Assembly: GCF_037996765.1 (NCBI RefSeq)
Contig: NZ_JBBNAD010000005.1
Coordinates: forward strand, 714,001 to 778,000
Source of the DNA: Bdellovibrio sp. GT3
GTDB taxonomy: Bacteria; Bdellovibrionota; Bdellovibrionia; Bdellovibrionales; Bdellovibrionaceae
Length of the DNA stretch: 64,000 nt
Reading direction: 5' to 3'
Shown: in pieces, positions 1-58,482 of the stretch
How the letters are laid out: every line of letters starts with the position of its first letter
Numbering within the stretch: the first letter of the stretch is position 1
Made by a program: the position numbers and the translations under genes
The notes under the pieces: model-generated
Seen by the model: the letters and a program-made list of their open reading frames with translations, nothing else
Database searches by the model: none
Told to the model about the DNA's origin: nothing

Positions 1-2459
1 CTTTCGCGTCCGTCTTTGGTTACGATCTTAATTTTCTTAATAAGACGGTTCATTGTCGCGAATTCAGCTTCAATTTCTTTAAGCAAAGGATCGTTTGGAT
101 TCTGATTCATGATGTTTTCGAAATCCAACTTGTATGCAGTCTTTGAGTTCATGATGTCGTTCAGGATCGAAAGGTATACTCTTTCTTCCTGGAAGATTGC
201 ATTCATAGCACCGTTGTAGGCAGGGCCCGCATTTATCAGGATTTTGCCTGGCTTATACAGACTGCGAATCAGGTTCACGACGATTTTATCGTACTCGATC
301 GTGTACTTGTCGAAAGCAGACTTCATTTGGCTGTAGGTGTTGTCTTTCCACCATGTCTCGAAAGCTGGTTTGGTAGCGGTACCCAGAACTGAAGGACGGA
401 TCTCTGCCAAAAGGTAGTTCACAACACCTTTATAGCTGCCTTGGCTTGCATTCACGCCCCAGGAATATGCTTGAGGGACTACAGCTTTGAATTTTTGAGT
501 ATAGGAAGGGTTGCACTCCTGGAAGTTGTCAGCTGGGTTTGCAATTGTTGGCGACAGGAATACCGAAGGGAATCCTGTAGTGTCGCGCACAGTTTGCTGA
601 CCTTTTTCGATATCAGGGCCGCAAACCATTTGCATGATCAGGTAGTCCGTAATTTGTGGAGTCGCGAAGATTCCAACACGGCGGTAGTAATTGGTATTGC
701 TGACTTTTTCGTATGAAGCAGGACTTGATACATAGGTTTTAGCCCATGCGGCACCAGTATCCATTTGTGGATTTGGATTTCCAATCATGCTTTGAACTTG
801 ATTTAGCAATTTCAAGTAAATCGCGTCGGCACCTGAATTCTGCTTCACAACCAAAGTACGAAGTTCCTGGTTCAGCAAGTTGAATACGGAAACCACCTTA
901 TTTGGTTCTTTAAGCCCCAGTCCATTCACGATTGCCGTGAAGTTCTTTTGCTGCGCGGGTGTTAGCTTTTTAAACTCTGGAGAGTTCAAAAGCATGGAAG
1001 CGGCAGCGGCAGCATCATGAAGAGTGTACTTTTGACGTTGTTCGATAAACTTTGGATCTGTGTGATAAGTATCATCCGGGCCAGCCTTCATACCATCGGC
1101 TTTTACTCCGTAGAGTGGTGAAAGCAAGGTGATGTCGGCTGGTTGGCTGCGATCAAAGCGGTTTTGACGGGCTTGTTCAACGAAGTCACCATAGAAGTTT
1201 TCTGCCGACTTATAGCCTTGAGTCAGCTGCATAAGAGCGCTTTGCCAGTTTTGACTTGCTTCATGGACGTCAGCAAGGTTAGCCATGCGCCATGCCGCCA
1301 TTTTTTCACGGAAGTCTTTCAATCTGAATTGAAGTGGGTGCTCGTAGCTATTCATCCAATGCGGTTTTTGAGCATTCATTTCTTTTTCGATATTTTCAGT
1401 GGCTGTGTACAGTGCCGGAGCATCGACGATGTTTCTCCAGGCATATGTCACAGAGCGCATGAATAGCTGGTCCAAAGCTACGAATGCTGAAAGCTTCAAA
1501 CCTTTGGTTAGCAAGAAGCGCAGACCTTTTACTTGCGTTGTACCCGGCATCAGCCATGTCACGATATCCACGCCAGTCATGCGAATGATGTTTGCTTTTT
1601 GAGCGTTAAGGCCCGTTACGATTCCTTTTTCAAGACCGGCTGCTACAGCAGATGAAATCAACATAGAAGTGATGTTCGGAGCCATCTCCCAGATTTTCTT
1701 GTGAATTACCAAGTGCTCATAAGCCTTTTCGCAAGGCTCTGCATCCGCGCCGCTTTGAATATCAGCTTCAGTAACTTTCTTGCCCATCCAAGTTTTAGCA
1801 CATGCTTTTACGTTAGGATCAGCAACGATTTGCGAGGCGATACCTTGAACCGTAGCACCCACAGTCATTCCCAGGTAGGGAATGAAAGCATGATACTTTG
1901 GATTTTTCATGTACATCGAAAGTATATTTGAAGCTGCACCTTGAGAGTACATAAATAGCTGAAATCCAATGATCCCCATCGGAGAAAATGAATGTGTCAC
2001 GTGTTGATCAGCGGCCACTGGATTCATGGAATAGTTAAATACCAACTGCCCTGCGATGACCATTCCCATGGACATGAAGAACATCACGGACTCAGGAGCA
2101 AGATTATGCAAAGAATGGGAAAACGCGGCCTTATTGCCGGTCCATGCCTTGCCCAGATCATTCAGAAGACGACGCTCCATGTTCTTTGGAGAATACTTGC
2201 GCAGGTTTTGCTCGTCAGCGAATGGGATTTCCATAACTGGGATATTGGATTTCTTGTCAAAAACTCGAGTGATCTTGTTTGCATAGTCCACTTGGACTCT
2301 ATAGCCAGCGCTTTCCATGATGGCTGCATCTTGTTTTGCGCGTTTGTCTTCAGACTTTGTCACTGAGGCTGCAAGTGCCGGAGATAATGAAGAAAAGCCA
2401 ACCACCAAAGCGGTTGTGAAGCTGATCATTCTTTTATATGTCAAAGAAGCCTTGAACAT
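1..2459 (-). CDS. Large exported/membrane protein of unknown function (3' end outside window)
   Basis: The frame is open from ATG 2459 to the window edge, about 819 codons, so the C-terminus is not seen. A GAGGAG ribosome site lies 6 bases before the ATG. Residues 1-31 form a signal peptide (positive start, hydrophobic core, SPALAA cleavage-like end). Further hydrophobic stretches occur near residues 125-141, 161-175, 191-212 and 262-280, suggesting membrane insertion; the rest is soluble and rich in Lys, Gln and aromatic residues, with scattered cysteines (for example in a KACAK and a PCEKA context). I do not recognise a family and give no function. It reads leftwards and is separated by about 140 bases from the DUF4105 gene, so it probably has its own promoter. 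Confidence 0.8.
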   Translation of the reverse strand, partial: MFKASLTYKRMISFTTALVVGFSSLSPALAASVTKSEDKRAKQDAAIMESAGYRVQVDYANKITRVFDKKSNIPVMEIPFADEQNLRKYSPKNMERRLLNDLGKAWTGNKAAFSHSLHNLAPESVMFFMSMGMVIAGQLVFNYSMNPVAADQHVTHSFSPMGIIGFQLFMYSQGAASNILSMYMKNPKYHAFIPYLGMTVGATVQGIASQIVADPNVKACAKTWMGKKVTEADIQSGADAEPCEKAYEHLVIHKKIWEMAPNITSMLISSAVAAGLEKGIVTGLNAQKANIIRMTGVDIVTWLMPGTTQVKGLRFLLTKGLKLSAFVALDQLFMRSVTYAWRNIVDAPALYTATENIEKEMNAQKPHWMNSYEHPLQFRLKDFREKMAAWRMANLADVHEASQNWQSALMQLTQGYKSAENFYGDFVEQARQNRFDRSQPADITLLSPLYGVKADGMKAGPDDTYHTDPKFIEQRQKYTLHDAAAAASMLLNSPEFKKLTPAQQKNFTAIVNGLGLKEPNKVVSVFNLLNQELRTLVVKQNSGADAIYLKLLNQVQSMIGNPNPQMDTGAAWAKTYVSSPASYEKVSNTNYYRRVGIFATPQITDYLIMQMVCGPDIEKGQQTVRDTTGFPSVFLSPTIANPADNFQECNPSYTQKFKAVVPQAYSWGVNASQGSYKGVVNYLLAEIRPSVLGTATKPAFETWWKDNTYSQMKSAFDKYTIEYDKIVVNLIRSLYKPGKILINAGPAYNGAMNAIFQEERVYLSILNDIMNSKTAYKLDFENIMNQNPNDPLLKEIEAEFATMNRLIKKIKIVTKDGRE

Positions 2460-21188: not shown

Positions 21189-21554
21189 ATAGCGGGCTCA
21201 AAGGCATTTGTCCAAGAATGAAGTGTTTCAATTTGAGATTTGGTGGAGAAGGTGTGTCCGTACCTTTTGTCTGAGAAAAAGAAGCGTTGGGAGAAATAAA
21301 AAAAGAGTCCGTCGGCAACTCTGAACTAAACCTGTTTTAGCTAAGGTGGGTGACCATGATAGCGACTTTAGGCTTCTCAGTACGAGCTGAGCTTGCACAC
21401 CATTGCCAGGGACAGTCCCCAAAAATATGCTTGTAAGGTTTAATTTCGATGAGCTTTACGCCTTCGAACCCTCTGAAAACTATTCTAGCAGGAAGTACAG
21501 TTTCGTCAATCGAACCGGACTCTAATTTTTTCGTAAGGCTCCGATATATTGCTT
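21189..21554. other. Intergenic stretch, mostly featureless, with short REP-like fragments
   Basis: There is no supported gene here; the short open frames look like chance. Two short motifs recur: 21250-21266 is a 16/17 match, in inverted orientation, to 19447-19463, and 21407-21420 holds GGGACAGTCCCC, a palindromic core similar to REP-type elements. No clear promoter for the small membrane-protein gene that follows is visible. Confidence 0.4.
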
Positions 21555-57880: not shown

Positions 57881-57954
57881 ACCGTTCGGAACCACTATTT
57901 TAGTTGTACTTAATTGGGGATAAAGTTGCGTCCAATTCTTTTGCCGTATATGTT

Positions 57955-58062
57955 GCGTGCATCCAGTTCAGGTGAAGTTCAGTGAAGTTTCTTTAACGGA
58001 AACCATTCTGACACTGTCCCGCAACGGTAACCTATTTTAGGAAGTCCGATCCCTGCTGGTGA
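57955..58062 (+). promoter_or_regulatory. Cobalamin-riboswitch-like leader of the thioesterase gene
   Basis: The core CTGTCCCGCAACGGTAA (58014-58030) and a B12-box-like AAGTCCGATCCCTGC (58042-58056) match the most conserved parts of cobalamin riboswitches. CCAG-tt-CAGG (57963-57972) can pair with CCTGCTGG (58052-58059), giving an enclosing helix; a small CCTA/TAGG hairpin sits between the two core parts. CCGC in the core (58019-58022) can pair with GCGG (58076-58079), which overlaps the GCGGAGG ribosome site of the following gene, so control at translation is plausible. Upstream GGGAA/GGTG elements are weaker than in the classical type. Confidence 0.65.
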
Positions 58063-58086
58063 AACAATTTATCCCGCGGAGGAATT

Positions 58087-58482
58087 ATGGATATCGAAAC
58101 TCGCAAGAGTTCATCGCGCACGCACGTCTTTAAAACGGTCTTTCCAGGAGAGACCAATCACTACAATACACTTTATGGTGGCCTTGCATTGAATTGGATG
58201 GACGAAATAGCGTTCATCGCTGCCACTCGATTTTCACGGCAAAAGTATGTGACCGTCAGTAGTGATCGGGTGAATTTCAATATCCCAATTCCCGCAGGCA
58301 CAATCGTTGAGTTGGATGCCTATGTAAGTAAAATAGGCACGACCAGTCTGGAAGTGACCGTGGATACTTACTGCGAGGATATGTATAGCGATAAGCGTAC
58401 AAAATCCATGACGGGGATTTTCACTTTGGTCGCCATTGATGAAAATAGGAAAGCCATTCCCATCAAATTTCCAGAAGACTGA
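58087..58482 (+). CDS. Hotdog-fold acyl-CoA thioesterase
   Basis: 131 residues. TVFPGETNHYNTLYGGLALNWMDEIAFIAATR is the catalytic-loop region of the BFIT/YciA-type hotdog thioesterases (Asn/Asp set), and DRVNFNIPIPAGTIVELDAYV continues the fold. It hydrolyses acyl-CoA to free acid and CoA in the cytosol; substrate length is not evident. ATG 58087 is preceded by GCGGAGG. It sits alone behind a cobalamin-riboswitch-like leader and ends at a terminator. Confidence 0.9.
   Translation: MDIETRKSSSRTHVFKTVFPGETNHYNTLYGGLALNWMDEIAFIAATRFSRQKYVTVSSDRVNFNIPIPAGTIVELDAYVSKIGTTSLEVTVDTYCEDMYSDKRTKSMTGIFTLVAIDENRKAIPIKFPED

Follow-up and report, generated by a model that had tools for sequence, protein, structure and literature searches.

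The window, a stretch of 64,000 nucleotides from Bdellovibrio sp. GT3 (contig NZ_JBBNAD010000005.1), contains a gene for a hotdog-fold acyl-CoA thioesterase preceded by a leader that resembles a cobalamin riboswitch. Both hallmark motifs of such riboswitches, CTGTCCCGCAACGGTAA at 58014-58030 and AAGTCCGATCCCTGC at 58042-58056, were found directly 5' of the gene, with 30 bases between the second motif and the ATG at 58087, as an earlier note on this DNA had claimed. The two-part motif pattern occurs once in the 64-kb window and in none of 100 dinucleotide-preserving shuffles. With 57.4 bits, the thioesterase is well above the gathering cut-off of PF03061 (20.6), while it misses the cut-off of the YciA equivalog NF007970 (41.8 vs 162 bits). 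Its closest solved sequences are 2gvh, a two-domain protein from Agrobacterium, and 2eis (Thermus TTHB207). The gene is probably a single-gene unit, since the next gene, katG, is convergent. The following features were located:

57959-58089, + strand: whole leader (aptamer and ribosome site), match of covariance model R1
57963-57966, + strand: P2 5' strand CCAG, partner CTGG at 58056-58059
57969-57972, + strand: P3 5' strand CAGG, partner CCTG at 58052-58055
57973-57976, + strand: J3/4 TGAA, UGAA in 25 of 26 aligned cores
57977-57982, + strand: P4 5' strand G(T)TCAG, partner CTGAC at 58008-58012
57987-58003, + strand: extra apical P4 hairpin GTTTC/GAAAC, from leader comparison
58014-58030, + strand: CTGTCCCGCAACGGTAA, with P5, L5 UCCCG (58017-58021) and P6 5' strand CGG (58025-58027)
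58025-58048, + strand: P6 (helix 3), CGG/CCG base and short inner hairpin CCTATTTTAGG
58049-58051, + strand: J6/3 AUC, conserved B12-box variant, one nucleotide below the RF00174 consensus
58075-58080, + strand: CG-N-GGA, L5 partner (L13 role), overlapping the Shine-Dalgarno GGAGG at 58078-58082
58087-58482, + strand: hotdog-fold acyl-CoA thioesterase (4HBT), 131 aa, PF03061 E-value 1.8e-15

The cobalamin riboswitch family RF00174 matched the forward strand at 57947-58074 over the full length of its model, with 17.8 bits and an E-value of 0.025 (Rfam cmscan, 601 nt searched). It was the best-scoring model of clan CL00101, which also comprises RF01482 and RF01689, and a search of the complete genome with RF00174 gave no second match at E ≤ 10. 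This falls short of the 31.5 bits required for gathering, whereas some related leaders of the same gene exceed that score, and the leader was for this reason treated as a variant of RF00174. Minimum-free-energy folding was uninformative (z-score −0.26) and did not show the fold of the leader.

Several parts of the leader differ from the family consensus or between relatives. The canonical B12 box and J6/3 (AGYCMGGAGACC-like) are absent and replaced by AGTCCG-AUC-CCTG, one base shorter. J6/3 consists of three bases (AUC or NNC) in all 26 aligned variant cores, compared to four in the RF00174 consensus. The lineage also departs from RF00174 in J3/4, which reads UGAA. Of the peripheral helices P1 and P2, the latter has 4 bp in the window leader; in relatives this region is variable and partly unpaired, with P2 appearing as CCTA/TAGG or GTTGAA/TTCAAC. 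The base of P6 switches to CTG/CAG in three relatives, and the helix shrinks to CGG-UAAAGU-CCG in several. The impression of a short element, recorded in the earlier note, was thus borne out for P6; P4, however, carries the extra apical hairpin, which takes the form GCTG/CAGC in two relatives (G057 and G058), is missing from most others and probably depresses the Rfam score. The L5 sequence UCCCG is near-invariant in the 26 cores and identical to the published consensus (PMC10653944).

Apart from the leader, the Rfam scan of the window gave a gathering-level match for 6S RNA only (RF00013, 69 bits, 21301-21474, minus strand). An ORF of 110 aa on the minus strand at 57454-57786 matches the N-terminal third of TIGR02147 (profile positions 2-97 of 272, below cut-off) and is possibly a truncated gene. 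PADLOC gave no match.

Conservation and covariation of the leader

Close orthologues of the thioesterase were found in four of the 24 genomes of the genus. The leader is present in all four; leader pattern and gene always occur together and neither was found alone. In the phylum, profile A4 of the thioesterase retrieved 34 genomes at E ≤ 1e-25. A cobalamin-riboswitch leader lies upstream of 29 of the 32 subfamily genes that were read, the exceptions being those of G119, G120 and G244. Independently, a phylum-wide search with RF00174 placed matches just upstream of many subfamily genes, some of them above the gathering score (32.1 bits in G113, 17 bases from the gene, and 35.6 bits in G151). 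The leader and gene of G077 match the Bacteriovoracaceae MAG JAKLJM010000013.1, from which the phylum membership of the compared genomes was deduced.

The exact pattern CCCGCAACN{10,40}AGTCCGATCCC was found in nine of 369 phylum genomes, and reversed-pattern controls gave none. The thioesterase is located downstream of six of these matches, a TonB receptor of two (G067, G227) and nrdB of one (G140), and the same core is hence also placed before B12-related genes in relatives. The two TonB receptors, which are cut by the locus ends, match the B12 receptor family TIGR01779 best, with scores under its equivalog cut-off. Three further pattern matches, from the viral_contigs scan, lie within phage-like sequence and were rejected as riboswitches.

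Covariance model R1 was built from 14 leaders and recovered 29 of the 32 thioesterase-subfamily loci, its matches including more than a dozen leaders outside the building set, most at E-values of 1e-11 to 1e-20. The window leader, itself among the 14, scored 97.4 bits (E-value 2.4e-23), and the next best match in the window 7.8 bits. On 26 loci of distant YciA-like homologues, one weak match was obtained (E-value 0.013), not immediately upstream of the gene.

Covariation was assessed over 26 distinct cores, in which P3, P4 and P6 together show 91.4% standard pairs, compared to 72.3±1.4% after shuffling (reached by none of 500 shuffles). Cores were excised by sequence anchors, with the P3 anchor and the P4 3' strand placed partly by best pairing, so this percentage leans slightly towards structure. 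Double-changed cells numbered 72 against 19.9±4.5 in shuffled alignments, and ten of 13 pairs carry changes on both sides. The covariation score was 0.55 versus 0.18 for shuffled cores, again not reached in 500 shuffles. When the partner strand was slid by one to three columns the signal disappeared, with at most 16 double-changed cells. In P3 (helix 1) both sides change at all five pairs, and 96% of the cells of P4 (helix 2) are paired. The leader comparison that the earlier note had proposed therefore gave covariation in all three core helices. That note had named a sub-threshold score together with a lack of conservation and covariation as grounds for giving up the riboswitch; the score is indeed sub-threshold, but the region is conserved and covaries in relatives.

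Some loci hold more than one element. In L046 (G227), two cobalamin-riboswitch leaders stand back to back in divergent orientation (1795-1911, plus strand, and 1480-1577, minus strand), one before the gene resembling a TonB B12 receptor, the other before an uncharacterised protein of 295 aa with a signal-peptide-like start. In L061 (G067) and L068 (G068), tandem near-repeats of about 80 bases with GCGGTAAAGC-like segments are found upstream of the thioesterase, separating it from a canonical long-P6 cobalamin riboswitch. A second riboswitch in genome G089 (L161, contig C122), located before a TonB-receptor-like gene, has AUAC as J6/3, so this junction varies within one genome.

The L5 partner and the proposed switch

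The earlier note had suggested that the core CCGC could pair with the ribosome site. This pairing can be refined to L5 UCCCG (58017-58021) with CG-N-GGA (58075-58080). Complementarity to L5, with one bulged base and overlapping the Shine-Dalgarno sequence, was observed in 24 of the 28 leaders tested; the count refers to complementarity only. Within the window, one of 36 occurrences of GGAGG stands in the context CGNGGAGG. The CGNGGA partner is missing from the leaders of G152, G146 and G245; on direct reading, the last of these has a terminator-like hairpin followed by a T run downstream instead.

In other cobalamin riboswitches, L5 and L13 form a kissing interaction (bulged in env8) that promotes the state in which the ribosome site is blocked upon cobalamin binding (PMC10653944). 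By analogy, we infer that in the window leader the L13 partner is the Shine-Dalgarno sequence itself and that the element acts as an OFF switch on translation. Plentiful cobalamin would bind the P3-P6 core, and in the bound state L5 UCCCG would pair with CG-N-GGA over the Shine-Dalgarno, blocking ribosome start. When cobalamin is scarce, the ribosome site would be free and the thioesterase translated. Judged from the sequence, an OFF switch acting at translation is very likely.

In three leaders, L071 (G095), L073 (G190) and L041 (G140), the L5-pairing Shine-Dalgarno drives a short upstream ORF (MNISSDL, MNFIITS and MLVEFE, respectively), and the thioesterase or nrdB gene starts further downstream. 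This arrangement resembles the interplay of riboswitch and upstream ORF reported in Mycobacterium tuberculosis (PMC11260477).

Thioesterase relatives in other phyla

In phylogenetic trees, the subfamily of the window thioesterase groups with Deinococcota proteins (support 99/96), and the genus copies are nested within Bacteriovoracaceae-type sequences. This nesting suggests that switch and gene may have moved together by horizontal transfer. The association of a cobalamin-riboswitch leader with this hotdog thioesterase, which the earlier note had described for a single locus, recurs in Deinococcota and Alphaproteobacteria; the note's central claim is thus supported and reaches further than the note had it.

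Homologues of about 47% identity are encoded on plasmids of Thermus and Deinococcus. Both T. thermophilus and T. oshimai have the thioesterase as the first gene of a thioesterase-nrdB-nrdA cluster, behind a cobalamin riboswitch; the T. thermophilus leaders score 32.7 and 37.2 bits with RF00174, and that of T. oshimai 48.3 bits with RF01482 (gathering score 50). The thioesterase is followed by nrdI-nrdE-nrdF in D. radiodurans, D. ficus and Deinococcus sp. AJ005, with weaker riboswitch matches, and by no nrd genes in D. radiophilus and D. proteolyticus, where a riboswitch match precedes it as well. Several Deinococcus leaders were found at weak scores only (R1, 16-21 bits). A link solely through nrd operons was rejected, as switch and gene occur with no nrd behind them in these two species and in all examined Bdellovibrionota.

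Among the Alphaproteobacteria, Sinorhizobium medicae has a two-domain homologue (44% identity over the N-terminal domain) behind an RF00174 riboswitch of 127.5 bits; next to come are a LysR gene, mesX and a cobalamin-independent methionine synthase domain. Ensifer sp. PDNC004 has a riboswitch of 114.2 bits before metE, which overlaps the thioesterase gene. Behind these lies another riboswitch, of 117.6 bits, in front of nrd genes, nrdI among them. A distant relative in Paracoccus yeei (L182, 9013-12987) heads a prpD-prpC-prpB cluster (2-methylcitrate operon) near metE, adjoining a short-chain fatty acyl-CoA regulator. No cobalamin riboswitch was found at this locus; the context hints that the wider family may act on propionyl-CoA. 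Four control hotdog loci (the paa operon, Rhizobium, B. velezensis and Halorussus) were likewise without a cobalamin riboswitch.

Proposed metabolic role and comparison with known systems

Three proteins with a B12-binding domain (PF02310) are encoded in the genome, the fused isobutyryl-CoA mutase IcmF (NF045497, 1763.8 bits against a cut-off of 1500) and two radical-SAM proteins. The icmF gene is placed after genes for 3-hydroxybutyryl-CoA dehydrogenase and enoyl-CoA hydratase. The class II ribonucleotide reductase NrdJ is present as well (594.7 bits, cut-off 399.95). MetH was discarded as the partner enzyme, none of the three PF02310 proteins being MetH. To our knowledge, no direct B12-free isozyme exists for B12-dependent acyl-CoA mutases, and we know of little discussion of how cells respond when these enzymes stall.

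Across the phylum, a PF01642 CoA mutase occurs in all 34 thioesterase genomes and in 337 of 369 genomes overall (91%). IcmF is found in at least 29 of the 34 and in most others too (229 of the 320 searched), including genomes of the genus in which the thioesterase gene is absent. Methylmalonyl-CoA mutase and IcmF were both too common to serve as correlates; since the mutases are near-universal and non-carriers in the genus have IcmF, the link to the mutase does not discriminate.

The leader at 57959-58089 is almost certainly a cobalamin riboswitch on the thioesterase gene, cobalamin binding being predicted from the aptamer core. We consider it quite probable that the locus as a whole is a compact riboswitch that turns off translation of a B12-starvation gene serving acyl-CoA relief. 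As such a gene, the thioesterase would rank with the B12-independent nrd and met enzymes, with which its relatives are observed to be co-located. For the relief itself, the chances are about even that it is the enzyme's role. A stalled AdoCbl-dependent acyl-CoA mutase, IcmF here and methylmalonyl-CoA mutase elsewhere, would let acyl-CoA accumulate, and the thioesterase would hydrolyse a presumed short or branched acyl-CoA and release free CoA. The presence of a mutase in 34 of 34 genomes, IcmF in this genome, the metE, mesX and class I nrd neighbours and the 2-methylcitrate operon are counted as circumstantial evidence, which makes mutase relief, a possibility raised in the earlier note, plausible and the best current guess.

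A real cobalamin riboswitch could also control a thioesterase that answers another need of B12-starved cells, for instance recycling of CoA or acyl groups in connection with class I ribonucleotide reductase or the methionine pathway. We regard this as somewhat unlikely. It would account for the class I nrd operons that the Deinococcota gene mostly heads, for metE or mesX beside the Rhizobiaceae gene, and for the failure of mutase presence to separate carriers from non-carriers. The partner gene, however, changes by lineage while the thioesterase stays, the gene has no nrd or met partner in Bdellovibrionota, D. radiophilus and D. proteolyticus, and the distant Paracoccus relative sits with prpD-prpC-prpB. 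Because the partners vary and some loci lack nrd and met, a general B12-starvation gene is a better fit than an accessory to a single pathway.

The shortened J6/3, one base below consensus, implies that ligand or selectivity may differ. Sensing of another corrinoid or of a particular upper-ligand form by the same architecture would agree with the three-base junction of all 26 variant cores and with the sub-threshold score of the window sequence, but is improbable, given that this variant core is also found ahead of B12-receptor-like and nrdB genes and that thioesterase relatives elsewhere lie behind canonical cores. A corrinoid ligand would be by far the simplest reading, and the preferred form may differ.

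A decayed, non-functional remnant might be expected to give the low Rfam score and poor folding z-score noted above. It is nevertheless very improbable: the core helices covary strongly, L5, J6/3 and the Shine-Dalgarno partner are nearly invariant across families, and the leader is kept with the gene at 29 of 32 loci. Chance resemblance to riboswitch motifs, for which nothing speaks besides the sub-threshold score, has a negligible probability and is already refuted by the shuffles without a match and by cross-genus conservation with compensatory changes.

On the reading as a cobalamin-controlled B12-starvation gene, the window switch may represent the bacterium's principal visible response to B12, as no other cobalamin riboswitch was detected in the genome. 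The occurrence of a thioesterase under a B12 switch across phyla, in many cases within operons that also hold metE or nrd, suggests relief of CoA-ester build-up rather than enzyme replacement, and offers a testable function for the solved relatives 2gvh and 2eis. The thioesterase is probably an overlooked part of bacterial coping with B12 shortage. Whether this distinct hotdog family forms an unrecognised B12-starvation arm in at least three phyla, a safety valve for mutase-blocked acyl-CoA that returns CoA, is evenly balanced in our judgement.

Known targets of cobalamin riboswitches are btuB, B12 synthesis, cobalt transport, metE and nrdAB/nrdEF, which supply B12 or replace B12 enzymes. Only four target categories were set up by Sun in 2013, and the word 'thioesterase' is absent from the main text of that paper (PMC3766115). 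Literature searches covering the main texts of openly accessible papers gave no paper on a cobalamin riboswitch and a thioesterase as a regulated pair.

The window leader shares with RF00174 the P3-P4-P5-P6 core order, the UCCCG L5, the CCGCAAC segment, a B12-box-like AGUCCG...CC, the 5' leader position and an L5 partner near the ribosome site. It differs in the three-base J6/3 (AUC), the short P6, the extra apical P4 hairpin, the merging of the L5 partner with the Shine-Dalgarno and the thioesterase as target gene. RF01482 (AdoCbl) and RF01689 (AdoCbl-II) are the best models for the thioesterase leaders of T. oshimai, D. proteolyticus, D. radiophilus and D. ficus, whereas the window leader fits RF00174 best. 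The encoded enzyme has the 4HBT hotdog family in common with YciA-type acyl-CoA thioesterases, but the YciA-like homologues of the phylum form a separate clade (support 99/96). Compared to the known targets, the thioesterase is neither a transport or synthesis protein nor an isozyme of a B12 enzyme; like them, it would be expressed when B12 is short, and in other bacteria it occurs together with metE, mesX and nrd genes in operons or loci.
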